The notes beneath the pieces are model-generated. The model saw nothing but the letters and a program-made list of their open reading frames with translations, made no database searches and was not told where the DNA came from. From an uncultured Clostridia bacterium (GTDB lineage Bacteria > Bacillota > Clostridia > Christensenellales > CAG-917), in contig CALVTH010000008.1 in NCBI GenBank assembly GCA_944360115.1, forward strand, positions 1 to 45,895: a stretch of DNA of 45,895 bases. Direction: 5' to 3'. Below, piece by piece: positions 4,548 to 45,895 of this stretch (position 1 is its first letter; each line of letters starts with the position of its first letter). A program made the translations under genes and the position numbers.

Positions 4548-4587
4548 CAAATCAATCGATTACTTCGGATGAATGGAGGAGACACTT

Positions 4588-23997: not shown

Positions 23998-24026
23998 TTG
24001 ACGAGCAGGCGATTGTGGCTTATAAT
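23998..24026 (+). promoter_or_regulatory. Promoter of the giant lipoprotein gene
   Basis: TTGACG (23998-24003), a 17-base spacer and TATAAT (24021-24026). The predicted leader is about 60 bases. AT-rich DNA lies directly upstream. Confidence 0.85.
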
Positions 24027-24094
24027 TCATACTGTCTATTAGTCTCACGTGCATCGCGTGTGCGCAATGTGTGCGGAGGCTCTTGGAGGGAATT

Positions 24095-27000
24095 ATGAGA
24101 AAACTCAAGACAGTCCTGCTCATCATCGTGATGCTGTGCCTCGTATGCGGTACTCTTGCCGCCTGCAACCCCAAGGGTGGCGGCCCCGCCGATCCCGGTA
24201 CGCCCGATGACACCACGCCGTCGAATGTCAACGCCATTTCGAGTACGGCAGCGTACGCCGCGTTCAGAGAAGCGGCGCTGAATACATACCCCGGGAATTA
24301 TTACAATTTCGGGTTGACGCTGGGCCTCGATTATGTCAAGGACGAGAACGGTCGTTATTATTCCGTCAAGATTCAGGCGGCAATCGACCCCGAAAACGAC
24401 GAGAATTCCCAGCTGCTCATCGAGCTGTGGAGGACGACTGCGGACGGAGCGGACGACACTCTGCTGCTCGGCTTCTACTACTATGACGGCACCGTCGTTT
24501 ACGACTGCACCGGCATAAAGAAGGGCGCCACCGTCGTCAAGACGCAGGACCTCAACATGACCGCCGTCGCCAAAGCCGTCAACACCGCGCTCGGCGGCAC
24601 CAGCATCGGCAGCCTGCTCATCGAAAACCTCCTCGGCATCGAACTCGGCGACCTCGGTACGGTCGAAGGTCTGTTGAGCATCCTCTTCGGAAAGACCGCC
24701 CGTATGATAACCGCGGCGGACGGCACCGTCGAATATCAGATCCCCCTCAATCTGGCTTCCCTCCTCAGCGTTGTGGGCGGACTGCTTGCTCCCGACGGCC
24801 TCCTCGGTTCTTACAGCGATCTCGTCAATCAGATCGGCGACATCCTCGGTCTCGACCTCTCCATGCTTCCCGCACTCGTGGATTCTTCCGCGATTTACAT
24901 GATTTCCTCCGTCAGGAAGGGCGATGACGGCGTCACCAGACTCGTCAGCGGTCCCACTTTCCAGATAGGTCTCGACTTCAACACCGCCGGCACTTCCCTC
25001 GAAGGAAGCGTGGGCATTATCCAGAGCGAACTCGACATCAACCTCGGCATCGACGAAATCTCCGTCGGCGCGGACGCTCCCTCCATCAATGTCAGGGATT
25101 ATCTCGTCTCCGTCAGGGAACTCGACATCGACGACCTCGACGAGTATTCGCCTCTTACCCTCGAACTCGGTCTCGAACTCAATCTCGACCTCAAGAAGAA
25201 CAGCTTCGAGGTGCAGACCATTCTCGCGTCTCTCGGCTCGCTGTTCGGCGATGTCTCCATCCCCGAAGCGCTCAAGACCCTCAACATCGACATAGCCGAG
25301 GACACTTCTCTCACGCTCGGTATCGACATCGCCGCCGAAATCAATATGCGCGATCCCGCCGGCACCAATCTCCTCGTCACCATTACGGGCAAGGACGGCA
25401 AGGTGCGCGGCACGGTTGCCTATGTCGGCTCCGAACAGGCTCTCTTCGCCGACCTTACGGGCATCCTCGGCAGGAACGCCAAAGTCATGGTGAGCGGCTT
25501 CAACCTGAACGAATTCCTGTCCGAACAGATAGACGGGCTGCTCATAACCATACGCGACGCAATCGCGGGGCTGTCCGGCAGCGCTCAGCAGTCCGCGCAG
25601 GCTGAATACGACGCGGCGGTCACCGAGCCCATTGCCAACGGCGACATCGTCAAATACTATGTGGCCTCGTCCAGCGACGACGAACCCGCGAACCTCGACA
25701 CCGTCGGTCTCATTCAGGCCCTCCTCGGCGCAATCGAGGTGGATATGAACGGCGACATCTTCAATATCGAGGGTATCGGCGTCACCATTACCAAACAGAT
25801 TCTCAACAGCATACTGTCCCTTGCCGGAGTGCAGGGCACCCTCCCCATAATGGGCGACATCAGACTGCAGTACGCCAACCCCGGCTTCGGCGAAACCAAG
25901 ACCGTCGACATCTCGGGTCTGGCTCTCGGCGTCGACGACGGCACCGGCAACCTCAGAACCCTGCTCGACCTCGGTCTGGGGATGAGTATCCGTATGGGAA
26001 CAATCGAGGATTCCGAGGCGTACGAGAACACGCTTGCCGCCATACGCGCGGGCAACGCCAATCACGAGTACGCCAATCTGCTCACTTTCGAGCAACTGCT
26101 CGACATCAACAATGTCAACATAGCCGACATCCTCGGCAATGTCGGCACCGTCAGCGTCGATATGTCGCTTGGTATCGACATCAACGCAATCGGCGGCGAC
26201 TTCCTCGAATTCGGCTACGACAGCGACAGCATAGTGCTCAAACTGCTGGCGGCGTTTGCCGACGAAGAGGGCATTGACGCCAACGCAATCCTCAAACTTG
26301 CCGCGGACATCAACCTCTCCTCGCTGCTCGCAACTGACCCCGTGACGGGCGCTCTCTCGTTCAATGTCAAGGGTCTGCTCGACGCCAACCTTTACCTCGC
26401 GTTGCTCACGGGCGAGGACGCCGAACCCGCTCTCGAACTGTGGCTCAACGGCGGCGTGGTGTATCTCGTCACCGACCTTCTCGGCGGCATGAACATCAAG
26501 GTAGATCTCGCGCCTTTCCTCGCTATGGCGGACGATTCGCAGGCGGGCGGCAGTTCTTCTGCGGCTCTCACCGCGGCGGACGGCGAAGAGAACACTTCGC
26601 TCGACATCAACCTCATCCTCTCGTTGCTCGCGGGCGTGGGAGTGGGCGACACCTACATCGATGTCTACCTTGCGTCCTTCACGCTCACGCAACTGTTCGG
26701 TCTGCTCGGGCTTGATCTCGGCGGCGCCACGATAAAACTCATCGGCGAAGGCGACGGCGAAGCCAGCATCGACGGCGGCGTCAAAATCGAACTCGGCGAC
26801 GGGCTCAACCTCGGTCAGGCGGGTATCGACATCTATCTCGGCATAGGTCGCAACGCCGCGATCTCCCTGTCGCTCGGCGGCTTCGGCGCGGGTATCGGCG
26901 CCAACGCCAACGCCATAATCCCCGAGGATAAGGCGAACAAGTGCGCCGAAGTCCTCGAAAATCCCTTTGTCTATCTCTACCTCGAAGCGGGTATGGACGC

Positions 27001-30000
27001 GTATGTCGCGGCGCAGGGTATTCCTCTCGGCGAAGACCTCGGCAACATAGTCATCGGCGAGGACATAGACATCGGATATTCCTTTGAAATAGAAGGTTAT
27101 CTCGACCTCAGACCCATAGTCGCCAAACTGTTCGGCGGGGAAGTCTCCTACGCCGGCAACAAGACCCAGCTTGCAATCAAACTCAGCAAGAACGACGGCA
27201 GCGACAAGACCGTCGTCATCGGCGTCTATTACAAGGACGGCAGGGCGTATCTCGACCTGAGCGCGCTCGGCATTGCTCCCGCGTCCGTCGAAATCGACCT
27301 CATGGCGCTCATAGTCGGTCTGGCCATGGCGGATGTCGAACCTCTCGCGGGTGGTCAGGCGCTTTCCTCCGCCGACCCCGTCGAGGGCGGTAACGATGTT
27401 GTCAAAGCCGCCGTCGACCTCGCACTCAAGATAGGCTCCAAGGGCTTCAGCATCACTCTCGTGCAGGGTCTCACCGAAATCCTCGCGCAGTATGTCGCGG
27501 GCATCGAGAGCATGGAACTCGACGCGTTGCTCGCAGTCGACTGGTCGGGCGCGGAAGGCAGCGATCTGCTCGCCCTCAGCCTCGGTCTCACCGACGAAAC
27601 GGGCAAGCCTCTCGCGAGCTTCGGCCTCAGCGTCGGACAGATCGGTCTCGGCATTGCCAAGGAACTCGGCGACGGCGAGGGTATGGTGCAGATGAAAGCC
27701 ATTCCCGACGACGACACCCTGGCTACGATGACCTCCATAGGTTCCGTCGTCACCGAGAATTACACCGCAATCGAAACCGCGGCGGACGCGCAGGCGTACA
27801 CGGGCGACCTCTTCTATTACTGGACGGGCGCCTATCTGCCGTTCACGCTGTCCAAGGCCATTGAAATCTACTACAACGGCGGCAACGGCGGCAATACGCT
27901 CTACATAGCGCAGACCGACTCCGACGGTTCGGTGTCCTATGTCGCCGCGAGCATGATTCAGGCTCAGGCCGCAAGCAAGGTTTACAAGGACGCGAACGGC
28001 ACCGTCGAGTACACTCTCGCCGACGGTATCGCCCTCTATTACGCGGACGGCAACAAACTGTACTCCAGCGCGATAGGCTTCAACCTCACCCTTCCTGCCG
28101 TGCACCTCGAACTCAAAGCGGAAATCGAGATGGGCACCACCCCCGGGGAGAGCACCTGGACGATAGGCAGCTGGATAAGCAACTTCCTCGGCGAAGAGAC
28201 CGACGACGCGATCAAGAGCTTCGTGTCGCAGTTGCTGGTGCAGTTCCAGCTGGTTGAAGAGACCATGGTCACGATAGGTCTCGACCTCGGCATCAATCTC
28301 AGGTTCAACCCCGAGAACATTGCGGACATCAACTACATCCTCGCTCACTCCGACCTCGCGCTCGTCGTGTCTGCGACCGACGCCGACGGTCTGACCGAAG
28401 AACTGCTGTCCCTCTATGTCATCGCCAACGAAGACACGGGCAAGAGCACTCTGTATGTCGCCACCAAGAGCGGCGGGCTCATCGACGGCCTCAAGGTCAA
28501 GGTGCCCGACATCGACCTCGGCGCCCTCGTCGGCAGCCTCACCGGCTCCGACGACACCGCTCAGGGTCAGGCGCTCTCCGCCAACGCTTATTCCAGCGCG
28601 GACGGCGACACGAGCGGAGAAGGCGATGTCCTGTCTGTATTAGAAGGACTTCTTGCCAACTGTATATATAGTATTGTTGTTAATAACAGCGGCGTGACCC
28701 TCAGCCTCGGCGCCTCTCTCGTGGCGTATGTGCTGTCTCTCATCCCCGCGACCGGCGTGCCTTCGCCCACCGACCCCGGTTTCCAGGATTTTGCCGATTC
28801 CTTCGTGCAGCTCAATCCCGCCAAGAGTTATCTCTCGCTCCTCGTCGGCGACAACGCGGGCGGTCTCGGCGGCAAATTCGCGCTGGAAGTCGGTCTCGGC
28901 ATAGACCCCGTCTACTTCAGCCTCGGACTCGGCGGACTCAACATCGATTTCGCGGGTGACGAGCTGTTCGGCAACGGCATCCAGACCGAAGAGGAATTCT
29001 TTGCCGATTATACCAGCCTGTACGACATCGAAGCGCTGTCTCTCGACCTCACTGTCGACCTCAACCTCAAGCTCAAGAACACCAACGCCAACGAGGACGG
29101 CACCCTCGATGTGGGGGCGCTCCTCGACGCTCTCATCGGCGAGGCGCTGGTCACATTCGGGCTCGAAATCCCCGAGGACCTCATCCTCGGTGCCGAACTC
29201 TATGTCGGCGCCAACCTCTCCTTCAACAGTGCGGAAGACACCCAGGTTGTCCTCGAACTGCGCGACACCGCGTCGGGCGACACCGTGTTCGGCGCATATC
29301 TCGACGGCCCCACTCTCTGGGTCAGGGGCGGCGTGCTGCCCATAGGCAATTTCGTGGTCGAGAACACCGGATTTGCCCAGCTCATAGTCGACACCGTGAA
29401 CGAACTGCTCGCGAGACTCAACGACGATAAGGCCGACGGCACGGCGGAAGCCATGACTGCGGCGGACGAGGCGGCGTCCGATTCCTTCGACATCTTCCTC
29501 GAACTCGCCAACGAGCGTATCGCGCTCTCGCTCACCGAGACCTTCATCGTGGCTCTCATCTCCGCGATTGCGGGCGACGGCGCTCAGACCGCCACCGACA
29601 TCGCCGGTATCATCGAGAAACTCAACCTCGGCGCGGAAGTCAAGGCGGAAGTGGACTTCTCCACCTTCACCATCGACATCGGGCTTACATCCAACCTCAT
29701 AGACCTCGGACTCAAGATCGTCGAGCCGCGTATCTCGCTCAGCAAGAGCGATAAGGTGACGACCGCCATAGGTTCGCTCAACCCCGACGATTTCAACAGC
29801 TATTCCACCAGCACCAAGGTGAAGGCGACCGTCGACCTCACTCTCGACATCGACCTCACCGAAGGTGATGTCTCCCTGTCCGACCTCATCGATGTCGCGC
29901 TCGGACTCGATTCCGTGCAGGCGGGTCTCAACGGCTACGACGAACTCATAACCGCAAACGACGCGGTCGCGGCGGCGGCTGCCGGCACCAAACTCTACAA

Positions 30001-33000
30001 GTTCGTCGACGGCGTTGCCGAAGCCTTCGTCGGCACCGAAGCCGAAATCAGGGATTACTATGCCTCCACGGGCAAGAGTCTCTATCAGGCGGGCGGCGTT
30101 GCCGCGGGCACCGGAAGGGATGTCCTCAACGCGCTGCTCAATTCTCTCGGACTCGAGCTCATCCTCTCCGAGAACATAACCACCGACATCGGTATCCACA
30201 TCGAGGCTCTGCTCGACCTTACCGCGCTCGGCGACTTCAAGTCCCTCAACGAAAACGACGCCAAAGCCTTGCTCAAGAAGGGCGGTTATCTCTATCAGAA
30301 AGCCACCGACGGCTCCTATGTTGAATTTGCGGGAGACGAAGCCGAAATCACCTCCGTGTATGCGGGCGGCGGCACGCTGTACACCTTCGGCGCGCTCGTC
30401 GATTCCATTTTCGCGGGTGACTTCGCAAGCCTGTCCGGCGGGGTGTCCGTCAACTTTGAAACGCTCCTCGGCGCGCTCGAAGCCTATGTCCAGCTCCGTC
30501 TCAACAACACTTACATCGACATCTACTTCGCGGGCGGTATGCTCTATATCGACCTCACCACATTCGGCGGCTCCAAGATTGCTCTCGATGTGATGTGGCT
30601 CATCGACGCGCTGTCCGCAAGCGACGACGCGGCGGGCTCCTCCGAAGCGATGACCGCCGACGGCGAGACTCCCGTTGCCGAGAGCAACACGACCAATGTC
30701 ATCCTCGGACTGGTCAACGCCATAATCAAGAGCGTGTCTCTGCAGACCGCGGTCACCGGCGTGGGCGGCAACCTCTTCAAGGGCGGGCTCAGCCTCAAGG
30801 CTATGCTCGGCAGCGAAGTGCTGTCCCTCGTGTTCAGCCAGCTCATCGGCGAGGAAGTCACCGTCGAAGACCTGCTCTTCGGCGACGACGCCAACCTCAC
30901 TCTCAAACTCCAGCCGCAGGATAACGGCAACAAACTGCTCGAACTCGGTCTCCACGCGCCCACCGAGAGCGGCGTGACGGTCGACCTCGGGCTCGGTGCG
31001 GGTCTCAAGGCGAGCTTCGCCGATCCCACCGTCACCCTCATTTCCCAGAACGAAAGGGCGGAATTCACCGATGTCACGGGCATTGTCGAGAACATTCTCG
31101 CAATTGTCAACGGCACCGCCACCGACGCGCAGGGCTCGCAGTATGTGATGTTCAGCGTCATGGGCAGGGTGTACTTCGATGTCAACGGCAACGCGCAGTA
31201 CGAACTCGGCGACACGGTCAACTCGCTCATAGGTTCGTTGCTCGCCGTCTACATCGAGAATCTCGTGTTCAACCTCAACATCGACGAGAGCGCCACGGCG
31301 GGTATAGGCTTCCGCCTCACCGCGGGTCTCGATGTCGCGGAACTTGCGGCAATCGATTTCAACGCCTGCAAGACAGACGGCGCGCTCGACTTCACCAAGT
31401 TCCTCAAGGCCTTCCTCACCGAGGTGCCCAGCCTCAAGATTGCCCTCGAACTCATCGAACTCGACGAGACGCTCAACTTCGCCAAGTACAGCAAGGCAGA
31501 CGCCGAAGCGGGTTATGTCGAAGAGGATGATTATGTCGTCAAGGGCGGCATCTACATCCAGAACGGCAACCTGTATCTCGACGGCACCAGCGTCTTCGAC
31601 GTGGCGGAGAACTACTCCTTCGTGCCCAACTTCACCAAGTTCGTTGCAGACCTCATCGAGGTGCCCGGCGAGGGCGACGGCTCCGACGACGCGGCGGAGG
31701 GCAGCGCTTTGTCCGCAAGCGTCGACGCGTACTCCTCCGCGGACACCGTGTTGCAGAGAAACGCGCTGTTGCAGGTGATTGCCTCCAGCAAGACGCTCAA
31801 GATAGTCATCACCAAGTCCATCCTCAGCGTGCTGCTCGTCACGCTTATGCCCGACCTCGGCGACATCACCGATGTCTTTGACAAACTTGATGTCTCCCTC
31901 GGTCTCGACGCGGAAGCGCCCGACGAAATCTTCATCAATCTCGGCATCGACCTCGGCAAGGGTGATTCCACTCAGAGCATAGGTCTCTCGCTCGGCGGCA
32001 TAGTCGTCGAATTCGGCGAAGACGCCGACAGGAGCGTCGTGCCCGAGTACATCACCGCGCAGAAGTCGCCCGACGGCAGCACCGATGTGCCGCTCACGGC
32101 TTTCTACGATTCCATCATCCGTCTGTCGACCTCCATCGAGCTTGAACTCGGCATCACCGAGGGCACCCTCGACTTCGGCGGATTCCTCAAGGATATCCTC
32201 GGCGACCTCAGCGGTGTGGTCATCGACATGCCCGCCACCGCGAAGGGTTATTCTTCCGCGCACATCCGTCTCGACCTTGCGGTCATGCTGGATATGTACG
32301 ATCCCGCTCAGTCCGAGATTTACATCGAGGTGTACAACCTCTCCAACGAAGCCGGCGCAGAGGTCAAGTGGCTCGGCGTCTACTACACCGGAATGACGCT
32401 GTACCTCGATCTGTCCTTCCTCGGATTGCCCAAGATCGCCGTGCCGCTCACTCTCATCAGCGACTACATCGACGAATATCTCGGCTTCCTGCTCGACAGC
32501 GACATCTATAACACCGTCGTCATCGACGGCAGCTCTTCCGCGGAAGGACTCACCGCCGCAGACGAGCCCGAAACAGAGTCTCTCACCCTGCAGGAGAAGA
32601 CCGTCAAACTGCTCATAAGCAAGAGAACCGTCGTCCTGTCGCTCGGCAACTATATGCTGCGCTATGTCCTCAGCCTCTTCGATATCGGCGGCAAGACTCT
32701 CGAGGACCTCGTCTATGAGAATCTCGAAGGCGGTCTCGACCTGTCGATCAATTACGACGAACTGCTCAACCTCGAAATCGGCGCCTATCTCGAACTCGAA
32801 GGCGACCGCTTCGTACCCGTTACCGTCACCGCCGAGAAATACGCCGACGCAATCAACAATGCAATCGCGGACGGAGAAGAGTATTACGGACAATTCGTCC
32901 GCTACACCGCCGACGACGCGGTGAATATCGCCGACTATGCCTACACGCTTGCCGACGAGGAAGCCGGTACCTACCGTCTGCTCAGCACGTCCGACAAGAA

Positions 33001-36000: not shown

Positions 36001-39000
36001 GCTCATAGTCGGCGACGGCTACAAGGCCGAAATCCTCTTCGAAATCAAGGCGCAGGTGTCTCTCGAATACGGCGAGTACGGAATCCCCGGCACCGACGCC
36101 GTGAGCACCGACACGCTTTGGCTCTCCGAGGTCGACCTCGCCATAGACACATGGCTCAGACTCGAGTACGACAACGGCGACGAATATCTCAGGCACTTCG
36201 TCGGTATCTACTATGACACCGATCCCGAGACCGGTTCCACCGCTCTCTATCTCGACCTCACTTGGCTGCTCGGCTCGGGCGCGAAGTTCAAGATCGATAT
36301 GTCCGCGTTCAGCCTCGAAGATCTCATTCAGAGCAAGGGCGGCATATTCGGGCTGTTCGGTCAGGGCAGCGCGGAAGGCGAAGCGTTGACTGCGGCGGGA
36401 GGCGAAGCGGGAAGCGCGGACGAAGTCGTGCTTACCGATACGGATGTCGCGTCCGTCATCCTCGGCATCTACACCAGGCGCATAGCCCTGCAGGCGAGCG
36501 CCGGTCTCGTGCGCCTGCTCATCGGCCTCATCGCACCCGATGCAAGCGACACCGTTTCCGCAATCCTGCCCAACATAGTTGCGGGTGTGGAAATCGGTAT
36601 GGCTCCGTACAACCTCAACATCTCTCTCGACATCTATGACGACCGTGCCGACGCGGAGGACGCCAACGGTATCCTCAGCATAGGCATTTCGCTCAACCTG
36701 TTCGACGCCAGCGACCGCAACAACGGCACGCGACTCGACCTCGGTCCCACCGAGGACTTCCTCGAGACCAACGCCGAACTGTTGCAGAGCAATTCGTCCG
36801 ATTACATCTTCTATCAGGCGATGTACACAGCGCTTCTCAACGGCGAGACCGCGCCCTCGGGCAGCACCGTCTATATCAGCGCGCCCGCGGCGCCCGGCGA
36901 AGCGGAGAAAGAGTATATCGTGAAACCCGAAGACAGCAATGACGACTATCCGGACGCGATAGAGTATGTCCGCAACGAAAAGGTGACCTATAACCTGGTC
37001 GACGAGGTGTACTACTCCTACGTGCGTGCCGACTACAACAGCCGTTACGCGCTCGTGCCGTCCGACTTCAGCGTATTCACCGGCAGCGTGTTCACCCGAG
37101 TCGATAACGGGGAAGGTAAGTTTACCTACATTCTCTACAGCGGTGCCATAAACGCCGAAGCCGACCTCTATGTGTCCGTCGGCGGCGGTAATTACAAGCG
37201 TCTGGAAGATGCGGGCTACTACTTCTATACATACGACTATGCGACGGGCGGTCCCAAGATGGTGCCTTACACCAAGGCGAATTACGGCGCCTATGTCACG
37301 AGTGTGCTGTCCGACAAGACGAAGGCGAACGCGCCCGAGTCCGTCTACAACATCTACACCGGCAGCAGCGCGGTGGGCGCGAGACTGTACGAGTATCTCG
37401 GCCCGCTTTCGGGCACGAACTTCGACGCGTACGTCGGTGACGCCGCCAACTACACCAAAGCGGTTATGGATACGTTCGGCGCGCATAAGAGCGAGTCTGT
37501 GTTCGGCGGGTTCAGCGAACTGCTCTCGCTCGATCTCAACGCGCTTCTCAACCGCGAAGAGGGCAGTGCCTTCGGAGTGGGTGACATTGCCGACCTCCTG
37601 ACCGTCGAGGATATGGAACTGACGCTCTCCCTCGACCTCAACATGCAGTTCAAAGAGATCATCAACTGGACTCAGCAGATGACCGAGTTGCTTGCCGTCG
37701 ACGGACAGGAGAAGGATTACTTCAAGTTCCTGCTGCAGTCCGCGACGCTCAATCAGGCAGAGTTCCTCTCCTACATAGGCGGCAAACTCGTACTCAGCGT
37801 GTATATCAAGGGCGAAAGCGTCAAGGCTGCACTCAAAGGCATGGCGGACACGGACACCATGACCATGATAAAGACCATGCTCGCGGGCGCGGAAATCTGC
37901 ATTCAGCTCTACTACGATTCCAACTACAACGGCACTCCGCTCGAAGAGCCGCTTACCGTGTGGATCACTTTCGGCGAACTCTACGTCACCGACGGCGAGA
38001 CCGGCGAACAGGTCATCAACCCGAATATGGGTGCGGCAAGCGTTTACATCAACGGCGGGGAATTCGCCAAGTACATCGGTCTTGCGGACAAAGAAGCGAC
38101 CGCGGGTACCTCCATCGGCAATTTCTTCGACAGGGTCAAACTGACCAACATCGACATCTTCTCGCTGCTTGCGGGAGACGAGGCGTCGGGCAGTGCGGAA
38201 GGTATGACGGCGGTTGACGGTACCGTCAACGACGGCGAAGCCACCGACACGGGTCTTATTCCCTCCAACATCTGGTCGTACATCGGAATGGCACTCGGTT
38301 ATGTGATGATTACCGACAACACTATCGGTATCGGACTTGCCGAAACGCTTGCCGCAAACGCGATCGAGCTGCTGGTCTCCAAGTTCACGGGTGCGGAATA
38401 TCTGCCCAAACTGACGGTGACCTACGGCGTCGACTCCAGCGGCGTTGCCATCATCTTCGGCGACACCCCGTCCATCAACATCAACCTCGGTGTGCAGAGC
38501 GGCGGCAACTATTTTGCGACCGCAGATGAAATCAAACAACTGCTCACGACGGACACGCAGGCCGCAACCAACTACAACATAACCGACGCGACGTTCGAAG
38601 CAATAGTCGGCAAGCCCGTGTTGGCGGCCGACGGAAGCGGCGGCTATAGGTTTGTGGGTGCGGAAAGCGCCGAGGCGACGCACTATCTCATCGCCGACGA
38701 CGACTACGCCGTGGCGGCTTACGCCTGCTCCGAATATGTGTGGCTCGGCACCCGTTACACTCTCGTCGCCGACGCCAATTCGAGCAGCGGTTACCGCTTC
38801 GATCCGGTAGCCAATCCTTACGCGGCTGCCTTTGAGCAGAATGACAACGGCTCGTATGTCAAACTCGACGCGAACGATGTCGGCGACACCGGAGCCTTCC
38901 GTACGAGGTACGAGAGCGACGGCACCGTGGTCAAATACGACACCGACGACTATGTCGCGCTCAACACCTACCTGCGCGTTACGGGCATGAGCGAGAGCGA

Positions 39001-42000
39001 CGTGTCGGCGAAAAGAAGGTACAATCTCAATGCAGCCCTGATTAAGGGCGAATACCTGAAGCTCGGTGACTTCCGCGTGTCGATGTCGCTCGGCAACCTC
39101 GGTATCAAGGTCAATCAGGGCGCGGCGACCAATCCCGCCCCCGTGGACGAAAGTTATACCGACTTCGCGAAAGAGGGCGGCATCCGCATAAGCACGTCGG
39201 TTGACGTCAGCTTCTACGGCGCGGAGGGCGAACAGGTCGACCTCAGCAGTCTGCTTGACTTCATTATCGGGCTTATCGGCGTGCAGGGTGTCAGCAACAA
39301 CGACCTGCGTCTCAACATCACGAGTGCGCTCGGTTACGAAGACAACCCCTACTTCAACGTCAAACTCGATATCTTCGTGGACGTGGCGAAACTCCTCAAA
39401 GCGTTGCTCGGCGACGGAACGAACAAAGATACGTCCGACTCTCTGCAGCTTGCACTGTCGATCAGACAGTACGAGCTCAATTCCGCCTACGATCCCGACA
39501 GCGAGAAATACGTTCTCGGCGATGTGCTTATCGGCGTGTATCTTGTCGACGATACTCTGTACATCGACTTGTCGGCGTTGCTCGGCTCGACCGCAAAAGT
39601 CAACATCTCCGAGCTCAACATCATCGATCTCATCATGGGAGCAACCGGCAACGACACCACGGCGTCCGAATCCGCGGAAGCGTTCACCGCGGGCATCAAG
39701 GATGTGCTCAACGCCACCAGCCACGATTACGCTTACCTCGGCGCGCTGGTCAATCCCGGTTACTTCTCGCTGCAACTGACGATGGCGGCCGTGGAGGCAA
39801 TCCTCGGTAAGGTCTCGGAGAATATGCCCGACAAGGGTATCCCGACCTCTCTCATCGACATCGGCGACATCATCATCGAAGCGTACGGCGACAGAGCGGA
39901 CGGCGATATGTTGTCCATAGGCGTCAAGTTCTCGGAAGGCTTTGCGGGGCAACTGGCTATTCAGTATCTGCATCTCGGCACGAAAGACCTCAAGTCGGTG
40001 TCCGGAATCTTGCCGACCGATCTCACTACCGAAGGCGTTTATATTAACGTGTTCAACAATGCGACCCGCGCTCTCGGCAAAGAGCTCACAATCGGCGTCA
40101 AGGCGCAGGCTGCGCTCAACATGACTTCGACCGGTCTCTCCCGTTACCCCTCCAACCCCGCAGAAAACTATGTGGTGTTGTCCAGCGCCGCAGAAGCCAA
40201 GGTCTATAACAACAGACTCTACAAGTATGAAGGTGGAGAGTATAAGGAGTGGACAATTGCCGAAGGTGCCGACAGAGATGCGGAGATAGACAAGTATTAC
40301 GCCAGCGGCAAACTCTATTACAACAAGTATGACACCTCGCTCGCCGGCTGGGCGGTCGACCTCATTGTCGGTCTGCTCGGACCTTCGCTCGAAGGCACGC
40401 TCGGCACCATTGCCTCCGACATGATCAACGTGACCTTCGCTGACGACGACCTCAACCTTGTCATCGATCTCACCGCCGATATCAACATCGCGGCGATAAT
40501 GAAGTACGGTCTTGCGGGCATTCTGTTCAGCGACCTCAAGCTCGATGTGAAACTTGTGGACTTCAACAGGAGTCTGCTCAAGATTTACTATCTCGGGTCG
40601 TCGCGTCTCAAGAGCAACGGCAGTTACTACACGCTGCAGCCCGACGGCAGCATATTCGCAGACTCGCTCTACATCGATGCCAGCGGCCTCGGCTTCGGAC
40701 TCATCAAATTCTCGGGCTTGACCGGTCTCGTGGGCGGTAGTACCGGCGGTATGTACGATGTGCAGGGTTCGACATCTTCGGCGGCGCTTTCCGCGGCGGA
40801 CGGTGACGAATCCGCTTCGAAAGACGACAACTCCGTCAACATCAGCGGTCTCGCGCTGGCAGTCAACATTGCGGACGGCTATGTCGGTATCAACCTCGGC
40901 GCAAGCCTTATCGACTTCGTGTTCGGAATGATAGGCGGGGATATCGCAAAATACATACCCGACATCCAGGAGTTGAACCTCAACCTGAGTTTCGCTGATG
41001 ACGGAATACAACAAATCAGCATAAACTCCACGCTGGATAAGGCGGGCACAGGTCTGCAACTCAGCATAGGCAATTTTGAAGTCGGTCTCGGCGGCGTCAT
41101 ATCCGACGAAGAACTGACCGATCTTACCGATGAAGTCAAAGAAGGGTATGCCGGACTTACTTACTCCGCAAGCGCGGGCATAGGACCGCTTATCGGGTCG
41201 ATACTCGAAAGTCTCGATCCCAACCTGACCATTCAGATTGACAGGAAAGGCGCTTCCACCATCGAATCCACTTACCGCACGTACTACCGTACGGCGACAA
41301 AGGTCGACAACAACTCGCATGTCCGACTCAATCTCTCCCGTGTGCCCAACGACTCGGGCGTCAACGGTCAGGATCCCGCCTACCGTCTCGTCCTCGGACT
41401 AAGTGCGACGCGTAACGACATGGACGGCATCGGCACCGCCAGCCTCAGCGTACACCTTACCTCCGGCGGCATGCTCTATGTTGACAGTGGCTCGATAATC
41501 ATCGGCGGTGCGGCGATAGTCGAGTGGATTTTGTCCAACTTCGTCAACCCGATCGAGCTCAATATGCTGGTCGAGACCATAAGCAATCTCACCAAGCCGA
41601 GCGACTCGTTGCCCAGTTGGTCTGCGCCGCAGGGCGCGACCGCTGCTGCCGAAACCGCGGCCGTATCCGCAAGCGACGAAGTCGCTGCGACCACCGCTGC
41701 AACTTCGAACGTTTCGGCAGGCACCATAAACGGCTCGGGTGCGGAAAGCAGTTATTCTCCCTCTCTCAAGAACCTTATCGAGGGAATAGAAATCAACCTG
41801 TTCAACAGCAACGGTTATCAGCCGTACATAAGCACCATGACCAGCGCCCCGAGCGGTGAAGGCGGGACGAGATACATCTCGCTCAAGATCGAGTTCAACA
41901 AAGACGCATTCAACGAACTGTTGATACTCATTCACTATATGCTCGTCAACATGCTTGCGGAGGCACCCGAACTCGCCAGCATACAGACGCTGTTCATCTA

Positions 42001-45000
42001 CAGCGATAGTGCCGCAAACGGCGAAGAGTTGTATTACAACGTCAACACGAGTTCGGCAAACGGCAATACGCTGCCGCGCAACATCTCCGCGATGCGCGCA
42101 ATCCTTGCGGATACAACAAAGACCACGCAACAGAAGGTCGAGGCGATTGCTCCGTACAGCAAGTCGTTGCCTTGGTCGTTGCTCAGTTACGTGCTCGACG
42201 GCGGTTTGCTCGGCATAGATAACGGAATTGTTTCATTTGGACAGGCGTGGTCGGCACTGGGCAACCTTGCCTGCCTGATTGCCAGCATCCTGCCTTTGCC
42301 GTTCGCAAGTTATGACGACAATGCGCCCAATCCTTCCGCAAACATCTACATCGACCTGTCGCCCGAAGCATCTACTTACGGACTCTCCGACAGAGTGGTG
42401 TTGCCCGGCTTGCAGGCAATAGAGTTGATGATCAACTGCGAGAAGAACGGATACGGCTCGAATATGAGTTACTATTCGGCAACCTCGGGGCGCACCTCCA
42501 ACATCGCCAACGCGACCGAAGCGATGGTGCTGTCCATCAATCCCAGAAACCTCGTCGAATCGAACACGAATTACAGCGGTACGGGTGCGCTCGGCTTCCT
42601 CGAAGCAATCAGCGCGTCCATTGACGGCGGACAGAGTCCCGTTCCCACCGAAGTCGTGATAACCGATCCCGCGACGCGTACGGGTAATATTGTCACGAGC
42701 AACGGAACGTTCAGCAACGTTGTCATCAACGGCAGTACTCTCGGCAATACGAAGTACTTCCCGCAGAATGCGACGGCCAACTATGTGAACGGTCAGAACT
42801 CCAGCGCGGGCAACCTCGGCGGTACCGGTATCATCTGGGACGCCGCCAGTGTCGATTACGTCGCTGCAACCGTCGACGCTTCGACAGGACGTCGACTTGC
42901 CGGATACATCTACGGCTACGCGCTCAACATAGTGGTGGCGGCGGTACCCGTGTACGTCGACAATACCTATGCTCTCAACAAAGTTGAGGCGTACGTCGAT
43001 TACAATGGCGACGGTGCGCGTGAATTCGCGGGTGTCAAACTTGACGTCTCGAGTTTTGCGGGTACCGAATTGCCCGACCTCGTACGCTTCACCTTCGAGA
43101 ACGGTAAAAAGTATATCTTCGCAACCGTGCTGAAGAACGACGCGGGTGAAGCGCTTACCGCGGTCAGAAGGGTCAGCGGAGGCTACGAACAGGTCACGTC
43201 CGGTGAAACCACGTCGTACAAGACCTATTCCGCATATAAGGCATACGCCGAAGTCTACACGGGCGACACTGCCAACACGGACGCTTACATGACCGTGGGC
43301 GGCGTGAATTACGTCAAGGTGACGCTTGACGGCGTCGAATACCTTGTGTTGAGCAACAAGGGTCAGCCCATAACGCAATACTTCCCCGTCGGCGAAATAA
43401 CCTGGGGCAGTGCGGAATTCACGTGGAGCAGCTCCGAAACGATAGAAATCGAGATGTCGTATAAGTGGGGCAATTCCTCCACGGCAACCACCGATTACGT
43501 CTGCGCGGTTGTGGCAAACAACGCCACGGGTATCGCGCAGCTTACGGGTGCGTCCGACGCGCTGACGCTCAACGAGCAGGGCAACACGGTCACGGTCGAC
43601 CTTGACAAATTGCTGGCAGGATTGGAAGTCGCCAAGTACAGGCAGACCATACTCGATGCGTTCAGCGAGCTCAATAATGCGCTCATCGTCAAACTCGGCG
43701 AGAACTCGTCCGCGAAACTGCACGCAGAGTGGGATCTCACCGCACTTGAAAGTGCAATCGACGCGCTGGCCGTGAAGGTCGACGGCGTAATCACCAAGTA
43801 CGACTTCTACAAGGGTCTGCGCGCGGATGTTACGCTGTGGCTCGGCGGCAAGACCGTCGAAGGCGGCAAAGCGTTCTACAACAATCCCGGCGGCTTGTTC
43901 AAGGGCAGCGGCGCAGTCCACAACGACGAGAACGACGTGAATTACGCCGACGAGGGATACATCGCTCAGGCGTTCACCCTCGCCGTGGTGGTCGACAGCA
44001 ATGTCGTTGACGAGGTCGTCGGCGGACTGACGTTCGTGCCGTATGACGAAGATGCGGCGACGCTGGAAGTCTCCGACTTCTACGACGATACCGTCAAGAT
44101 ACTCTTTGCGGACGGCACCACCCGCACCTTCACCGTGTCCGGTACCGAAGTCGGCGGACTCAACATCACGCCCGTGCGCCTCTGCGTCATAGACGGCAAC
44201 GGCGAGAAGACCGTGTGGAACAACACGGGTGACAAGCCCGCCTCCTATGTCCTGTTGTCCGACCTGATGAAAGAAATCAGTTACAAGGGCTACACGGGCA
44301 AGTACGGCGACATCTATCTCGTCGGTACCATCGGCACCGATATCGTCGGCGAGCAGACGGTGTATCTGCCCGTGACGGTTCCTTCGCTGAATCCCGTCTA
44401 CGGCACGCTCGGTTATATCACGACGAGTACCGCGGGTACCGAACTAGACTACGACGCCCGCTATGCGGTGGACGTCAACGGCAACTTCGTTTACAGCGAG
44501 GACGGCGGAGAGACGTACAAACTCGCCGACGGCGTGCACAGCTTCCCGTGGAACTTCCTCAGAAGCGACGGTGTTACGAAACCCTTCACCGTTTATCTCA
44601 ACTGGAACGCAGCCAAGTTCTACACCGACGGCGGCTTCAACAGCGAGATTGCTCTCGGCAACCTGCTCAGCAACTATTACTACTTTGCAATCGTTCCGAT
44701 TTCCGTCAAGGATACCGACGGGAACGACCTCGGACTCAGCAACGTTGCAGGAGCGGAGTATCAGACAATCAAAGTCCAGTTGTATTTCGCGGGGCGCGAC
44801 ATTGATCCTGTGGAGGGTAGTTCGTTGTCCGTTACGGGTCCCTTCCCGAGCAGCGGATATGTCTTCGACAAGGACAACATCCCCAGCACCACGCTTTACG
44901 ACTACATCGTCGCTTCGCTCGGCACGCAGCTCGATTTCGTTTCGTCGCAGGTCGGCAATGTCACGGTTTCTATTGATTCCGTCAACTTCGGCGACTTTGC

Positions 45001-45895
45001 GGGCAGAATGAAGACCAATCTGCAGTCCGTAGCCTCGGAGGGCGGTTACAGCAAGACTGTCACCTACAGCTTCACGGCGACGGCTGAGAACGGAATGCAG
45101 TACAAGTTCTCCGGATCGCTCAAGATTTCGGTGCCGTCGACCAAGCCCGTGGAACCCGTGGTCAATCCCGTCCTGACGGATATTTCCGACATCAGGCTTG
45201 CCACGCTGGTCGTCGATCCGTTCGCGTATGAGTCCTTCGACGCATTCGCGGCGGCGTTCAAGGAGGCGTACGCCGACAAGACATTCACCGCGAATAACGG
45301 CGGCACGGTTGTAAACGGTACATTCGATTCGCTGTCGTTCTCCAAGGTGGGTTATGCCGACGGCAACTCCGCGCAGCTCCCGCTCGCGGGCGGCACTTAC
45401 GACGATGTGAGAGTCGACTTCACAACCGCTGACGGAACCAAGTACTACGCGTTCGTGACCGTCATAATCACCAACCGCGAAGTGAGCGACTACGAATTCG
45501 TGCTGAACGGCTTCACGGACACGGTCACCCGCGCCGGCTACGGTGCGGTGGAAACCATTACCTGGGTCAATGACACGACGGGCGCGGTCGTCAGCATCAC
45601 CACCAACTCGGCGGGTCTGCCCACCGAAATCAACATACTCAACCCCTTCGCCTTCAACTGGGAGACCATCTTCGGCGAGGGCAGCGGATTGCGCGTGACG
45701 CTTGCGGATACGGGCGAAGAAGTGCTGCTCAAGGTCGACAATCCCTTCGTCGACGGCATCGGCGACTTCTCGCTGACGACGGGCTACACCAACGAGGCGC
45801 TGACGCTCTCGCTCTCCAACCACGATGTCAATGTGGCGTTCAACATCACCGTCAAGTTCACCGTTTCGTCCGCGAAACTCACGATGTACAACACC
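24095..45895 (+). CDS. Giant modular lipoprotein, at least 7,267 aa (3' end outside window)
   Basis: The ATG at 24095 follows GGAGGG (24085-24090) and a good promoter. The frame has no stop up to the last base, so 7,267 codons are visible and the protein is longer. Residues 1-24 form a lipoprotein signal (MRKLKTVLLIIVMLCLVCG, then TLAAC; lipobox L-A-A-C24), so it is probably anchored outside the cytoplasmic membrane. From ~70 to ~5,870 the protein is an array of divergent modules. Each has alternating hydrophobic/polar strands (LELGLDLGIN-like), then typically GVYYTGMTLYLDLSFLGLPK-like text, an LxxLI helix, a Ser/Ala-rich tag such as SSAEGLTAADE, and a helix before the next strands. Residues ~5,870 onward lack the tag and look like beta domains. 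Cysteines are few. I recognise no catalytic motif. Candidate roles are a cell-envelope fibre, an adhesin or a lipid-binding beta-groove protein (inference). Confidence 0.95.
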   Translation, partial: MRKLKTVLLIIVMLCLVCGTLAACNPKGGGPADPGTPDDTTPSNVNAISSTAAYAAFREAALNTYPGNYYNFGLTLGLDYVKDENGRYYSVKIQAAIDPENDENSQLLIELWRTTADGADDTLLLGFYYYDGTVVYDCTGIKKGATVVKTQDLNMTAVAKAVNTALGGTSIGSLLIENLLGIELGDLGTVEGLLSILFGKTARMITAADGTVEYQIPLNLASLLSVVGGLLAPDGLLGSYSDLVNQIGDILGLDLSMLPALVDSSAIYMISSVRKGDDGVTRLVSGPTFQIGLDFNTAGTSLEGSVGIIQSELDINLGIDEISVGADAPSINVRDYLVSVRELDIDDLDEYSPLTLELGLELNLDLKKNSFEVQTILASLGSLFGDVSIPEALKTLNIDIAEDTSLTLGIDIAAEINMRDPAGTNLLVTITGKDGKVRGTVAYVGSEQALFADLTGILGRNAKVMVSGFNLNEFLSEQIDGLLITIRDAIAGLSGSAQQSAQAEYDAAVTEPIANGDIVKYYVASSSDDEPANLDTVGLIQALLGAIEVDMNGDIFNIEGIGVTITKQILNSILSLAGVQGTLPIMGDIRLQYANPGFGETKTVDISGLALGVDDGTGNLRTLLDLGLGMSIRMGTIEDSEAYENTLAAIRAGNANHEYANLLTFEQLLDINNVNIADILGNVGTVSVDMSLGIDINAIGGDFLEFGYDSDSIVLKLLAAFADEEGIDANAILKLAADINLSSLLATDPVTGALSFNVKGLLDANLYLALLTGEDAEPALELWLNGGVVYLVTDLLGGMNIKVDLAPFLAMADDSQAGGSSSAALTAADGEENTSLDINLILSLLAGVGVGDTYIDVYLASFTLTQLFGLLGLDLGGATIKLIGEGDGEASIDGGVKIELGDGLNLGQAGIDIYLGIGRNAAISLSLGGFGAGIGANANAIIPEDKANKCAEVLENPFVYLYLEAGMDAYVAAQGIPLGEDLGNIVIGEDIDIGYSFEIEGYLDLRPIVAKLFGGEVSYAGNKTQLAIKLSKNDGSDKTVVIGVYYKDGRAYLDLSALGIAPASVEIDLMALIVGLAMADVEPLAGGQALSSADPVEGGNDVVKAAVDLALKIGSKGFSITLVQGLTEILAQYVAGIESMELDALLAVDWSGAEGSDLLALSLGLTDETGKPLASFGLSVGQIGLGIAKELGDGEGMVQMKAIPDDDTLATMTSIGSVVTENYTAIETAADAQAYTGDLFYYWTGAYLPFTLSKAIEIYYNGGNGGNTLYIAQTDSDGSVSYVAASMIQAQAASKVYKDANGTVEYTLADGIALYYADGNKLYSSAIGFNLTLPAVHLELKAEIEMGTTPGESTWTIGSWISNFLGEETDDAIKSFVSQLLVQFQLVEETMVTIGLDLGINLRFNPENIADINYILAHSDLALVVSATDADGLTEELLSLYVIANEDTGKSTLYVATKSGGLIDGLKVKVPDIDLGALVGSLTGSDDTAQGQALSANAYSSADGDTSGEGDVLSVLEGLLANCIYSIVVNNSGVTLSLGASLVAYVLSLIPATGVPSPTDPGFQDFADSFVQLNPAKSYLSLLVGDNAGGLGGKFALEVGLGIDPVYFSLGLGGLNIDFAGDELFGNGIQTEEEFFADYTSLYDIEALSLDLTVDLNLKLKNTNANEDGTLDVGALLDALIGEALVTFGLEIPEDLILGAELYVGANLSFNSAEDTQVVLELRDTASGDTVFGAYLDGPTLWVRGGVLPIGNFVVENTGFAQLIVDTVNELLARLNDDKADGTAEAMTAADEAASDSFDIFLELANERIALSLTETFIVALISAIAGDGAQTATDIAGIIEKLNLGAEVKAEVDFSTFTIDIGLTSNLIDLGLKIVEPRISLSKSDKVTTAIGSLNPDDFNSYSTSTKVKATVDLTLDIDLTEGDVSLSDLIDVALGLDSVQAGLNGYDELITANDAVAAAAAGTKLYKFVDGVAEAFVGTEAEIRDYYASTGKSLYQAGGVAAGTGRDVLNALLNSLGLELILSENITTDIGIHIEALLDLTALGDFKSLNENDAKALLKKGGYLYQKATDGSYVEFAGDEAEITSVYAGGGTLYTFGALVDSIFAGDFASLSGGVSVNFETLLGALEAYVQLRLNNTYIDIYFAGGMLYIDLTTFGGSKIALDVMWLIDALSASDDAAGSSEAMTADGETPVAESNTTNVILGLVNAIIKSVSLQTAVTGVGGNLFKGGLSLKAMLGSEVLSLVFSQLIGEEVTVEDLLFGDDANLTLKLQPQDNGNKLLELGLHAPTESGVTVDLGLGAGLKASFADPTVTLISQNERAEFTDVTGIVENILAIVNGTATDAQGSQYVMFSVMGRVYFDVNGNAQYELGDTVNSLIGSLLAVYIENLVFNLNIDESATAGIGFRLTAGLDVAELAAIDFNACKTDGALDFTKFLKAFLTEVPSLKIALELIELDETLNFAKYSKADAEAGYVEEDDYVVKGGIYIQNGNLYLDGTSVFDVAENYSFVPNFTKFVADLIEVPGEGDGSDDAAEGSALSASVDAYSSADTVLQRNALLQVIASSKTLKIVITKSILSVLLVTLMPDLGDITDVFDKLDVSLGLDAEAPDEIFINLGIDLGKGDSTQSIGLSLGGIVVEFGEDADRSVVPEYITAQKSPDGSTDVPLTAFYDSIIRLSTSIELELGITEGTLDFGGFLKDILGDLSGVVIDMPATAKGYSSAHIRLDLAVMLDMYDPAQSEIYIEVYNLSNEAGAEVKWLGVYYTGMTLYLDLSFLGLPKIAVPLTLISDYIDEYLGFLLDSDIYNTVVIDGSSSAEGLTAADEPETESLTLQEKTVKLLISKRTVVLSLGNYMLRYVLSLFDIGGKTLEDLVYENLEGGLDLSINYDELLNLEIGAYLELEGDRFVPVTVTAEKYADAINNAIADGEEYYGQFVRYTADDAVNIADYAYTLADEEAGTYRLLSTSDKNSGNAGNADFPYVAPEDRYKSEKLSSVSVGTVVYQRVAGDALNKGVNDMHLALDLGIKNFELSFITEREPLLTGDELKSYMDFNTAETVTVSETISLDLLFAQNASDISLVDLLNYLFEGSSEELEAFITAAGLSGGDLNRAIDVVVALEFRLGAFLNYLRSLDAQFDLRYGTARDQLLSLGENVDLITFVNAITAVMGAKKVPNASGSIYYVDNNVDDLVGLEDLLEFVNASVRIVTNGKSEDGNDDGTKHDILGVYFVGGEFVEATADTPDSVQRYSNFFRSETGIYGYVDGTFKLISEIEKGDENGSQVYSGDRYGYDASYMYPNDRGTYIRKDAGLYVDLSYLGQPSIYMALSELQNFIGSLMSDSSAASEALTADDGSSSVSSDEEVAPPSVSLGSFAESLPLLSSEIASYIKAFLYGVRMTSSFIQVLLQADYVNSLLGLLMGESSLLPEGTNQPYLTIYTDVNNYNYTYAATYNADDPDQTITVVADADQVAFADTRFHINIDDENGLYYVDYTTNRLELRSTMSESEAAEYQAKVDAGEKGYNYYAITPIVTYIYVDGEYKLFSAATAADKRKAQRYTVTDSDHGVTEAMIGAYVFYEAVETAYGVRYNELDYRVRLEYDETTGAYMPKYDGSEVFFVYPLAEQNPLIEVGLYLWDYKATLSINLPETDALDYSYVAASAEEVAAGIGLYEKSPVYVYESANMIVDSDDAFIYYRGNYHPVYGNLYVRGTASYDKVENQNDYTLDGTYYVACTDSNIIYYVALNADNYYQRVMYDEIYTPVSATNGGTYYVREARDTTEIYQPDMFVDFSVAYKFEATGGATATNVDIRNLTGIHPNSLYRYDESADRWDAADGNVTGADHANNIYMGNEILHVWDASSDRFVSYAEYGAHAGNVTFYIAEPIKYVDSSELYTISLTLRGSLSISGMENYIPVEDYVKVSGGKELAEGAVRYNYDEAEGKYVEAEDGEFVKVSGNVMALGDILGGIVGDLSSLLIVGDGYKAEILFEIKAQVSLEYGEYGIPGTDAVSTDTLWLSEVDLAIDTWLRLEYDNGDEYLRHFVGIYYDTDPETGSTALYLDLTWLLGSGAKFKIDMSAFSLEDLIQSKGGIFGLFGQGSAEGEALTAAGGEAGSADEVVLTDTDVASVILGIYTRRIALQASAGLVRLLIGLIAPDASDTVSAILPNIVAGVEIGMAPYNLNISLDIYDDRADAEDANGILSIGISLNLFDASDRNNGTRLDLGPTEDFLETNAELLQSNSSDYIFYQAMYTALLNGETAPSGSTVYISAPAAPGEAEKEYIVKPEDSNDDYPDAIEYVRNEKVTYNLVDEVYYSYVRADYNSRYALVPSDFSVFTGSVFTRVDNGEGKFTYILYSGAINAEADLYVSVGGGNYKRLEDAGYYFYTYDYATGGPKMVPYTKANYGAYVTSVLSDKTKANAPESVYNIYTGSSAVGARLYEYLGPLSGTNFDAYVGDAANYTKAVMDTFGAHKSESVFGGFSELLSLDLNALLNREEGSAFGVGDIADLLTVEDMELTLSLDLNMQFKEIINWTQQMTELLAVDGQEKDYFKFLLQSATLNQAEFLSYIGGKLVLSVYIKGESVKAALKGMADTDTMTMIKTMLAGAEICIQLYYDSNYNGTPLEEPLTVWITFGELYVTDGETGEQVINPNMGAASVYINGGEFAKYIGLADKEATAGTSIGNFFDRVKLTNIDIFSLLAGDEASGSAEGMTAVDGTVNDGEATDTGLIPSNIWSYIGMALGYVMITDNTIGIGLAETLAANAIELLVSKFTGAEYLPKLTVTYGVDSSGVAIIFGDTPSININLGVQSGGNYFATADEIKQLLTTDTQAATNYNITDATFEAIVGKPVLAADGSGGYRFVGAESAEATHYLIADDDYAVAAYACSEYVWLGTRYTLVADANSSSGYRFDPVANPYAAAFEQNDNGSYVKLDANDVGDTGAFRTRYESDGTVVKYDTDDYVALNTYLRVTGMSESDVSAKRRYNLNAALIKGEYLKLGDFRVSMSLGNLGIKVNQGAATNPAPVDESYTDFAKEGGIRISTSVDVSFYGAEGEQVDLSSLLDFIIGLIGVQGVSNNDLRLNITSALGYEDNPYFNVKLDIFVDVAKLLKALLGDGTNKDTSDSLQLALSIRQYELNSAYDPDSEKYVLGDVLIGVYLVDDTLYIDLSALLGSTAKVNISELNIIDLIMGATGNDTTASESAEAFTAGIKDVLNATSHDYAYLGALVNPGYFSLQLTMAAVEAILGKVSENMPDKGIPTSLIDIGDIIIEAYGDRADGDMLSIGVKFSEGFAGQLAIQYLHLGTKDLKSVSGILPTDLTTEGVYINVFNNATRALGKELTIGVKAQAALNMTSTGLSRYPSNPAENYVVLSSAAEAKVYNNRLYKYEGGEYKEWTIAEGADRDAEIDKYYASGKLYYNKYDTSLAGWAVDLIVGLLGPSLEGTLGTIASDMINVTFADDDLNLVIDLTADINIAAIMKYGLAGILFSDLKLDVKLVDFNRSLLKIYYLGSSRLKSNGSYYTLQPDGSIFADSLYIDASGLGFGLIKFSGLTGLVGGSTGGMYDVQGSTSSAALSAADGDESASKDDNSVNISGLALAVNIADGYVGINLGASLIDFVFGMIGGDIAKYIPDIQELNLNLSFADDGIQQISINSTLDKAGTGLQLSIGNFEVGLGGVISDEELTDLTDEVKEGYAGLTYSASAGIGPLIGSILESLDPNLTIQIDRKGASTIESTYRTYYRTATKVDNNSHVRLNLSRVPNDSGVNGQDPAYRLVLGLSATRNDMDGIGTASLSVHLTSGGMLYVDSGSIIIGGAAIVEWILSNFVNPIELNMLVETISNLTKPSDSLPSWSAPQGATAAAETAAVSASDEVAATTAATSNVSAGTINGSGAESSYSPSLKNLIEGIEINLFNSNGYQPYISTMTSAPSGEGGTRYISLKIEFNKDAFNELLILIHYMLVNMLAEAPELASIQTLFIYSDSAANGEELYYNVNTSSANGNTLPRNISAMRAILADTTKTTQQKVEAIAPYSKSLPWSLLSYVLDGGLLGIDNGIVSFGQAWSALGNLACLIASILPLPFASYDDNAPNPSANIYIDLSPEASTYGLSDRVVLPGLQAIELMINCEKNGYGSNMSYYSATSGRTSNIANATEAMVLSINPRNLVESNTNYSGTGALGFLEAISASIDGGQSPVPTEVVITDPATRTGNIVTSNGTFSNVVINGSTLGNTKYFPQNATANYVNGQNSSAGNLGGTGIIWDAASVDYVAATVDASTGRRLAGYIYGYALNIVVAAVPVYVDNTYALNKVEAYVDYNGDGAREFAGVKLDVSSFAGTELPDLVRFTFENGKKYIFATVLKNDAGEALTAVRRVSGGYEQVTSGETTSYKTYSAYKAYAEVYTGDTANTDAYMTVGGVNYVKVTLDGVEYLVLSNKGQPITQYFPVGEITWGSAEFTWSSSETIEIEMSYKWGNSSTATTDYVCAVVANNATGIAQLTGASDALTLNEQGNTVTVDLDKLLAGLEVAKYRQTILDAFSELNNALIVKLGENSSAKLHAEWDLTALESAIDALAVKVDGVITKYDFYKGLRADVTLWLGGKTVEGGKAFYNNPGGLFKGSGAVHNDENDVNYADEGYIAQAFTLAVVVDSNVVDEVVGGLTFVPYDEDAATLEVSDFYDDTVKILFADGTTRTFTVSGTEVGGLNITPVRLCVIDGNGEKTVWNNTGDKPASYVLLSDLMKEISYKGYTGKYGDIYLVGTIGTDIVGEQTVYLPVTVPSLNPVYGTLGYITTSTAGTELDYDARYAVDVNGNFVYSEDGGETYKLADGVHSFPWNFLRSDGVTKPFTVYLNWNAAKFYTDGGFNSEIALGNLLSNYYYFAIVPISVKDTDGNDLGLSNVAGAEYQTIKVQLYFAGRDIDPVEGSSLSVTGPFPSSGYVFDKDNIPSTTLYDYIVASLGTQLDFVSSQVGNVTVSIDSVNFGDFAGRMKTNLQSVASEGGYSKTVTYSFTATAENGMQYKFSGSLKISVPSTKPVEPVVNPVLTDISDIRLATLVVDPFAYESFDAFAAAFKEAYADKTFTANNGGTVVNGTFDSLSFSKVGYADGNSAQLPLAGGTYDDVRVDFTTADGTKYYAFVTVIITNREVSDYEFVLNGFTDTVTRAGYGAVETITWVNDTTGAVVSITTNSAGLPTEINILNPFAFNWETIFGEGSGLRVTLADTGEEVLLKVDNPFVDGIGDFSLTTGYTNEALTLSLSNHDVNVAFNITVKFTVSSAKLTMYNT
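24300..41730 (+). repeat. Array of divergent protein modules tagged by 'SAEALTAAD' linkers
   Basis: Tag copies read by eye in the giant frame: ~26552 SSSAALTAADGE; 27350 GGQALSSADP; 28557 GQALSANAYSSADGD; 29436 TAEAMTAADE; 30636 SSEAMTADGE; 31690 EGSALSASVDAYSSAD; 32530 SSSAEGLTAADE; 34105 SAASEALTADDG; 36366 SAEGEALTAAGGE; 38190 GSAEGMTAVDG; 39663 SESAEAFTAG; 40777 SSAALSAADGDE; 41638 AAETAAVSASDE. Spacing is 0.8-2.3 kb. Just before most tags stands a block such as VYYKDGRAYLDLSALG, YFAGGMLYIDLTTFG, VYYTGMTLYLDLSFLG or VYLVDDTLYIDLSALLG. DNA identity between modules is low, so the duplications are old. Confidence 0.85.

Follow-up and report, generated by a model that had tools for sequence, protein, structure and literature searches.

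The stretch of DNA that we analysed (the window, 45,895 bases) is an entire contig of a genome assembled as 1.49 Mb in 55 contigs, with a completeness of 95%. An open reading frame on its plus strand (24071..45895) is still open at its 3′ end, and the window's ORF list and translation hold zero stop codons in the 7,267 codons that follow its start codon, an ATG at 24095. An earlier note on this DNA had pointed out the same stop-free frame. Because the window is the whole contig, the giant frame runs to the end of the assembly, and the absence of a stop means that the assembly ends inside the gene (24095..45895, plus strand). Alignment to complete orthologues places 631-742 C-terminal residues beyond the end of the window copy, and a full length of about 7,940 aa is expected from these orthologues. 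The start signals described in the note are also borne out by direct reading of the plus strand. A sigma-70-type promoter (23998..24026) combines TTGACG (23998-24003), a 17-nt spacer and TATAAT (24021-24026), and a ribosome-binding site, GGAGG (24085..24089), lies 5 nt before the ATG. The N-terminal signal peptide, lipobox and cysteine by which lipoproteins are recognized are all present, in that the first codons (24095..24166, plus strand) encode the peptide MRKLKTVLLIIVMLCLVCGTLAAC with the lipobox LAAC, and the cysteine at residue 24 is predicted to be lipid-modified.

Other plus-strand genes in the window are of separate interest. A 1,113-aa protein (4573-7914) carries two AAA ATPase regions and a C-terminal FtsH-like peptidase M41 domain, an unusual double-AAA FtsH-like fusion. 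A radical SAM protein with a SPASM domain (2741-4267) adjoins a 302-aa ORF (1953-2861) that has no Pfam match, and the two are possibly a peptide-modifying pair. Two stand-alone condensation-domain proteins lie near one another (9857-11155 and 12375-13664), the first with a weak match to the PapA acyltransferase, and these are possibly a pair for acyl transfer to lipids or peptides.

The giant gene is real. Given the base composition, a stop-free run of 7,267 codons would arise by chance with a probability of about 10^-107, and GC content by codon position keeps a steady pattern along the gene, with third-position values of 0.69-0.87 throughout. One could suspect an assembly artefact or a misread frame, since this MAG contig terminates inside the gene and long antisense ORFs lie opposite it. 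On the minus strand these ORFs span 28640-41320 (4,226 aa) and 24020-28348 (1,442 aa); they follow from codon bias, there being only 4 TTA/CTA/TCA codons among the 7,267, and give no evidence of genes. Moreover, more than 20 independent MAGs share the stop-free frame, and complete copies reach natural stops at 7,256-8,953 aa. Because orthologues in independent MAGs keep the giant frame, the frame-breaking errors and strain-chimeric assembly that the note had feared are excluded. An artefact, already refuted by the relatives' frames, is thus vanishingly improbable.

The first 800 residues of the protein find matches in 25 of 60 related genomes, where the open frames are mostly 7,263-10,465 aa long and have no internal stop. 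Nine orthologues are complete: eight come from the window's genus and the ninth from a different genus of its family. Identity between them is 31-62% across the full alignment. The closest orthologue extends 671 residues beyond the end of the window copy, with 65% identity over the first 800 aa and 55% across the full alignment. Candidatus Limadaptatus stercoripullorum is among the named relatives, as are uncultured Clostridia of roe deer caecum and of sheep colon. Across the order, the repeated module described below is matched in 85 of the 395 genomes with a completeness of 90% or more, and these belong to six families; apart from the window's own genome, it is absent from the class sample (290 genomes) and from the phylum sample (397 genomes). 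Profile building left out seven giants that belong to four other families of this order. Five of these are complete (9,118, 10,380, 10,553, 12,531 and 13,589 aa), and two, at 6,036 and 8,205 aa, are cut by the piece that was fetched. A lipobox is present in all nine full-length family relatives and in all seven held-out giants.

A syntenic giant gene, which the note had proposed seeking, was found in related genomes, with flanks kept on both sides within the family. The upstream flank consists of a GH20 gene, a conserved protein of ~285 aa and PIG-L; downstream lie an auxin-efflux-type transporter, an SPFH-like protein and a zinc-ribbon protein, all three named by eye. No lipid-transport context was seen among the neighbouring genes at giant-gene loci. 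In nine of the ten genomes searched, the modules lie within just one gene; the exception, genome G083, has a second module-bearing gene with a frame of 3,772 aa (G083:C4:263245-263700). The ~285-aa upstream neighbour also lies near the giant gene in G083, which belongs to another family, and this favours vertical descent. The giant gene is single-copy and was probably inherited vertically.

Single-sequence self-comparison missed most of the internal repeats, yielding no pair in one run and weak pairs in another, so profiles built from orthologues were needed. When profiles of 320-residue windows of the protein were compared with one another, stretches matched down to E 3.6e-16. A module profile was then started from nine copies of module 9 and extended in rounds through the family, converging at 191 copies from 14 proteins. 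With this profile, residues 61-5957 of the window protein resolve into 15 divergent copies of one module of ~200-380 aa, all on the plus strand: module 1 (24275..24886, residues 61-264), module 2 (25121..25858, residues 343-588), module 3 (26120..26743, residues 676-883), module 4 (26942..27550, residues 950-1152), module 5 (28079..28789, residues 1329-1565), module 6 (29003..29620, residues 1637-1842), module 7 with an insert (29786..30889, residues 1898-2265), module 8 (31118..31894, residues 2342-2600), module 9 at the protein's conservation peak (32087..32731, residues 2665-2879), module 10 with an insert (33233..34372, residues 3047-3426), module 11 (35903..36583, residues 3937-4163), module 12 (37577..38413, residues 4495-4773), module 13 (39152..39844, residues 5020-5250), module 14 (40286..40984, residues 5398-5630) and module 15 (41147..41965, residues 5685-5957). 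The weakest copy, module 15, has E 2.6e-10, and such values are partly circular for family members, whose own sequences build the profile. Other checks are free of this circularity: the module count is near constant (14-15 in every complete orthologue) in proteins only 31-62% identical, and the seven held-out giants contain 13-21 copies each. Shuffled, locally shuffled and reversed control proteins gave no module-profile match below 0.01. Across relatives, a given module is conserved together with its orthologues, and module number is nearly fixed. An architecture of a lipobox, ~15 tandem divergent modules and a distinct tail is therefore well supported by sequence comparison.

The module consensus runs through long alternating strands, a signature hairpin, a helix, a polar disordered loop, a second helix and further strands. 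Hydrophobic and polar positions alternate in columns 12-24, for example, where Kyte-Doolittle values are 4.0, -1.4, 3.8, -1.7, 1.9, -1.3, 3.0, -1.8, 4.0, -2.5, 3.1, -1.4 and 2.4, and the lag-2 autocorrelation of the consensus strands is 0.38 versus 0.32 for the best of 2,000 shuffles. The signature hairpin resembles L-G-x-Y-Y-x-x-G-x-L-Y-x-D-L-S-x-L-G-x-x-K-I, and its two tyrosines and aspartate are, together with Glu-Ala-x-x-Ala in the loop, the most conserved positions of the module. In the window's family the loop motif S-E-A-x-x-A has Glu in 120 of 183 copies and the two Ala residues in 162 of 183 and 132 of 182. An instance lies after the hairpin at residues 817-830 (26543-26584), in a loop predicted to be disordered, and the motif is repeated in most modules. 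At the same loop position, other families are rich in Ser, Asn and Glu or in Cys, which makes S-E-A-x-x-A specific to the window's family. Cys-rich loop inserts occur in several modules of one relative (G246, L069-L070) and near module 8 of another (G009), and are possibly metal-binding knuckles.

Such a loop, polar and present in nearly every module, with a motif conserved despite predicted disorder, is what might be expected if the chain were a polyprotein that is cut in its disordered loops after export to release numerous surface subunits or small, lipoprotein-like carriers. For Omnitrophota, work cited in PMC13104272 has proposed that giant proteins are processed. However, the loop falls inside the modelled domain rather than between domains, and only the first unit would carry a lipid anchor. 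The motif is also absent from the giants of most other families, and we therefore rejected it as a general cutting site. We consider a polyprotein quite improbable.

Searches of curated family models gave no relevant Pfam or NCBIfam match for the giant protein, which agrees with the note's description of a giant, lipid-anchored protein without enzyme motifs; enzymatic domains of the kind that define NRPS/PKS megasynthases were likewise absent from the Pfam and NCBIfam results. Matches at E 0.005-0.25 (PSMbeta, Peptidase_S37, HMG-CoA reductase, 'invert_tail' and others) were taken as chance, because they are scattered, below the cut-off and confined to one stretch each. No relevant match emerged when 36 modules were searched against Pfam, a PDB sequence search found no match for the module, and none of these Pfam, NCBIfam and PDB searches produced a sequence profile linking the module to LolA or LppX.

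An AlphaFold2 model of residues 24-1118 from 13 sequences is a weak multi-module model (pLDDT 62.9, pTM 0.49), and each of its three consecutive modules aligns to LppX, LprG, LprF, LolA, RseB, LolB or Csa1 with Z 5-7. For the first module the best structures are the LppX, LprG and LprF lipoproteins (2byo, Z 7.0; 3mh8, Z 6.9; 4qa8, Z 6.8). Residues 664-955 (26084-26959, containing module 3), modelled alone from 26 sequences (orthologous to modules 3 and 5), gave pLDDT 75.3 and pTM 0.66, and the top match was LolA (8v1k, Z 7.3, 155 aligned, rmsd 9.3), with LolB and RseB also among the top rows. Of the best 50 rows, 39 are of the LolA/LppX/Csa1/ependymin kind and 11 are porin-like or other barrels; porin-like barrels score near LolA, at Z 6.7. 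Foldseek gave no match below 0.001 for the single module, and for the long model it gave the Csa1 structure 4egd with a probability of 0.97; in the alignments scored by Z, Csa1 has 6.2-6.5. The top Foldseek match for the long model, otoferlin, is noise (TM 0.05), and no viral structure matched below 0.001. All structure matches of the modules have Z below 8, under the secure level, and rmsd values are mostly 5-11 Å, so the fold is probable rather than proven. The module likely adopts a beta-taco fold like that of LolA, LppX, LprG, RseB and Csa1. The note had called the protein structural or lipid-interacting, and the second of these is favoured by the models, at middling match strength.

Downstream of the modules lies a C-terminal tail (41966..45895, plus strand) with no known domain, which continues for ~670 residues more in the closest relative. 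Its mean conservation is 0.25-0.5 (residues 6501-7267) versus 0.5-0.7 for many module stretches. In the tail of the giant of G041 (L071-L073), residues 7277-7333 form a hydrophobic, Gly-rich stretch of 57 residues that resembles a membrane hairpin. Many giant proteins that bacteria place outside the cell are adhesins, and a variable tail at the far end would suit a surface fibre in which rigid, pocketless spacer modules lift the tail beyond the wall to bind host mucus, food particles or other cells. Moreover, an InlB-like repeat was recognized by eye at the end of one relative, and another relative has carboxypeptidase-regulatory-like and weak fn3-like matches. Nevertheless, no adhesin domain was found in the window protein or in the tail of its closest relative. 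The hallmarks of sortase-anchored or Ig-repeat adhesins are missing too, with no C-terminal LPxTG and no clear, isolated membrane helix in the close relatives, and no known adhesin repeats. The 14-15 modules, fixed as they nearly are and conserved orthologue by orthologue, are unlike adhesin repeats that expand and shrink, and lipid carriers are their best fold matches in the models. A giant adhesin is thus somewhat unlikely.

The protein is very acidic, with a net charge of -603 in the visible part of the window copy and of -381 to -1,046 across all giants. This charge, together with the many parallel pockets that the modelled fold would provide and the gut origin of several named relatives, could point to a protective surface coat, not a transporter, that would take up bile acids, fatty acids, cationic peptides or metals. 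Acidity is also common among exported proteins, however, and we regard a store or trap of this kind as improbable. Omp85 is absent from the source genome and 20 relatives, whereas the same search was positive in seven control genomes. This implies that the source bacterium is probably a one-membrane cell, and we rejected an outer-membrane explanation on the basis of these 21 genomes.

From the modelled fold we infer a lipid-handling function for the chain. LprG, LppX and LolA handle lipids with one pocket each, and if the modules are lipid pockets, the simplest function would be to move or hold lipophilic molecules between membrane and surface. Our preferred reading, held tentatively, is a membrane-tethered, very acidic chain of ~15 lipid-pocket domains that spans the wall of a one-membrane bacterium. 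The chain would be held at its N-terminus by the lipid, inserted in the outer leaflet of the cytoplasmic membrane. In each module, amphipathic strands would probably form a curved sheet that, with helices and a disordered polar loop, closes around a hydrophobic pocket. By analogy each might measure ~4-5 nm, so that together they would extend 60-75 nm and cross the cell wall, leaving the tail exposed beyond it. The pockets may bind lipids or other greasy molecules and either pass them along or hold them between membrane and surface. A stronger version, in which ~15-21 pocket domains of a one-membrane bacterium relay lipids through the wall to or from the surface, is doubtful; to our knowledge, lipid-relay machines of such a kind have so far been described only between two membranes.

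A genome of 1.5 Mb devotes ~1.6% of its length (~24 kb) to this one gene, and the copies of relatives reach 41 kb. At least six families, all in one order, retain the gene. Within its own family the domain order is nearly fixed; the gene has no match in the curated databases searched, and it offers a clean test case for why bacteria retain giant genes. If the modules are lipid carriers, these gut bacteria would have a surface function that moves or traps lipids across a Gram-positive wall, for which we know of no machinery. If the fold fails, what is left is an unclassified giant lipoprotein family. Our literature search found no description of this giant protein, a weak absence given that preprints and most subscription papers fell outside its coverage. 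LolA/LppX-like lipoproteins are known as single domains, and an array of 14-21 such putative domains in one lipoprotein, across several families, was not found in the literature searched.

Giant proteins are already known from uncultured bacteria (PMC13104272, citing West-Roberts 2023; PMC11573180). Omnitrophota and Oscillospiraceae MAGs, for example, encode giant proteins with several domains, the largest exceeding 57,000 aa (PMC13104272, citing West-Roberts 2023). These resemble the present family in coming from uncultured bacteria and in reaching tens of thousands of residues in single proteins, but they belong to other lineages and are not described in that source as LolA-like lipoproteins.

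Among smaller proteins, LppX, LprG and LprF of mycobacteria (the LppX_LprAFG family) are likewise lipid-anchored outside the cytoplasmic membrane, and their beta-taco is the best match of the first module as modelled. However, each has one domain of ~200 aa rather than 15 in a row, the giant has no Pfam match, and mycobacteria possess an outer mycomembrane as a delivery target, whereas none is known for the giant's host. LolA, LolB and RseB of Gram-negative bacteria include the best match of the isolated module model (8v1k), but they are soluble or single-domain proteins acting between two membranes, no sequence similarity between them and the giant was found, and its host genomes lack Omp85. 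The Csa1 lipoproteins of Staphylococcus (SAOUHSC_02783) also belong to a one-membrane bacterium and have a fold similar to the modelled one (4egd), but consist of a single domain of ~220 aa.

TamB/AsmA and VPS13-type bridge-like lipid transfer proteins are very long and built of repeated beta modules with amphipathic strands, and in them a single groove runs without a break from one membrane to the other. The giant's modules, in contrast, look like separate domains: they align individually to single-domain carriers, although the multi-module model is weak (pTM 0.49). Bridge-like proteins connect two membranes, whereas the giant shows an N-terminal anchor only. Its host genomes lack Omp85, its close relatives show no membrane helix at the C-terminus, and a second membrane is not known in its host. 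The likeness to these proteins (reviewed in PMC7613979) is one of possible working only, and it lies in great length, repeated beta modules and amphipathic strands.
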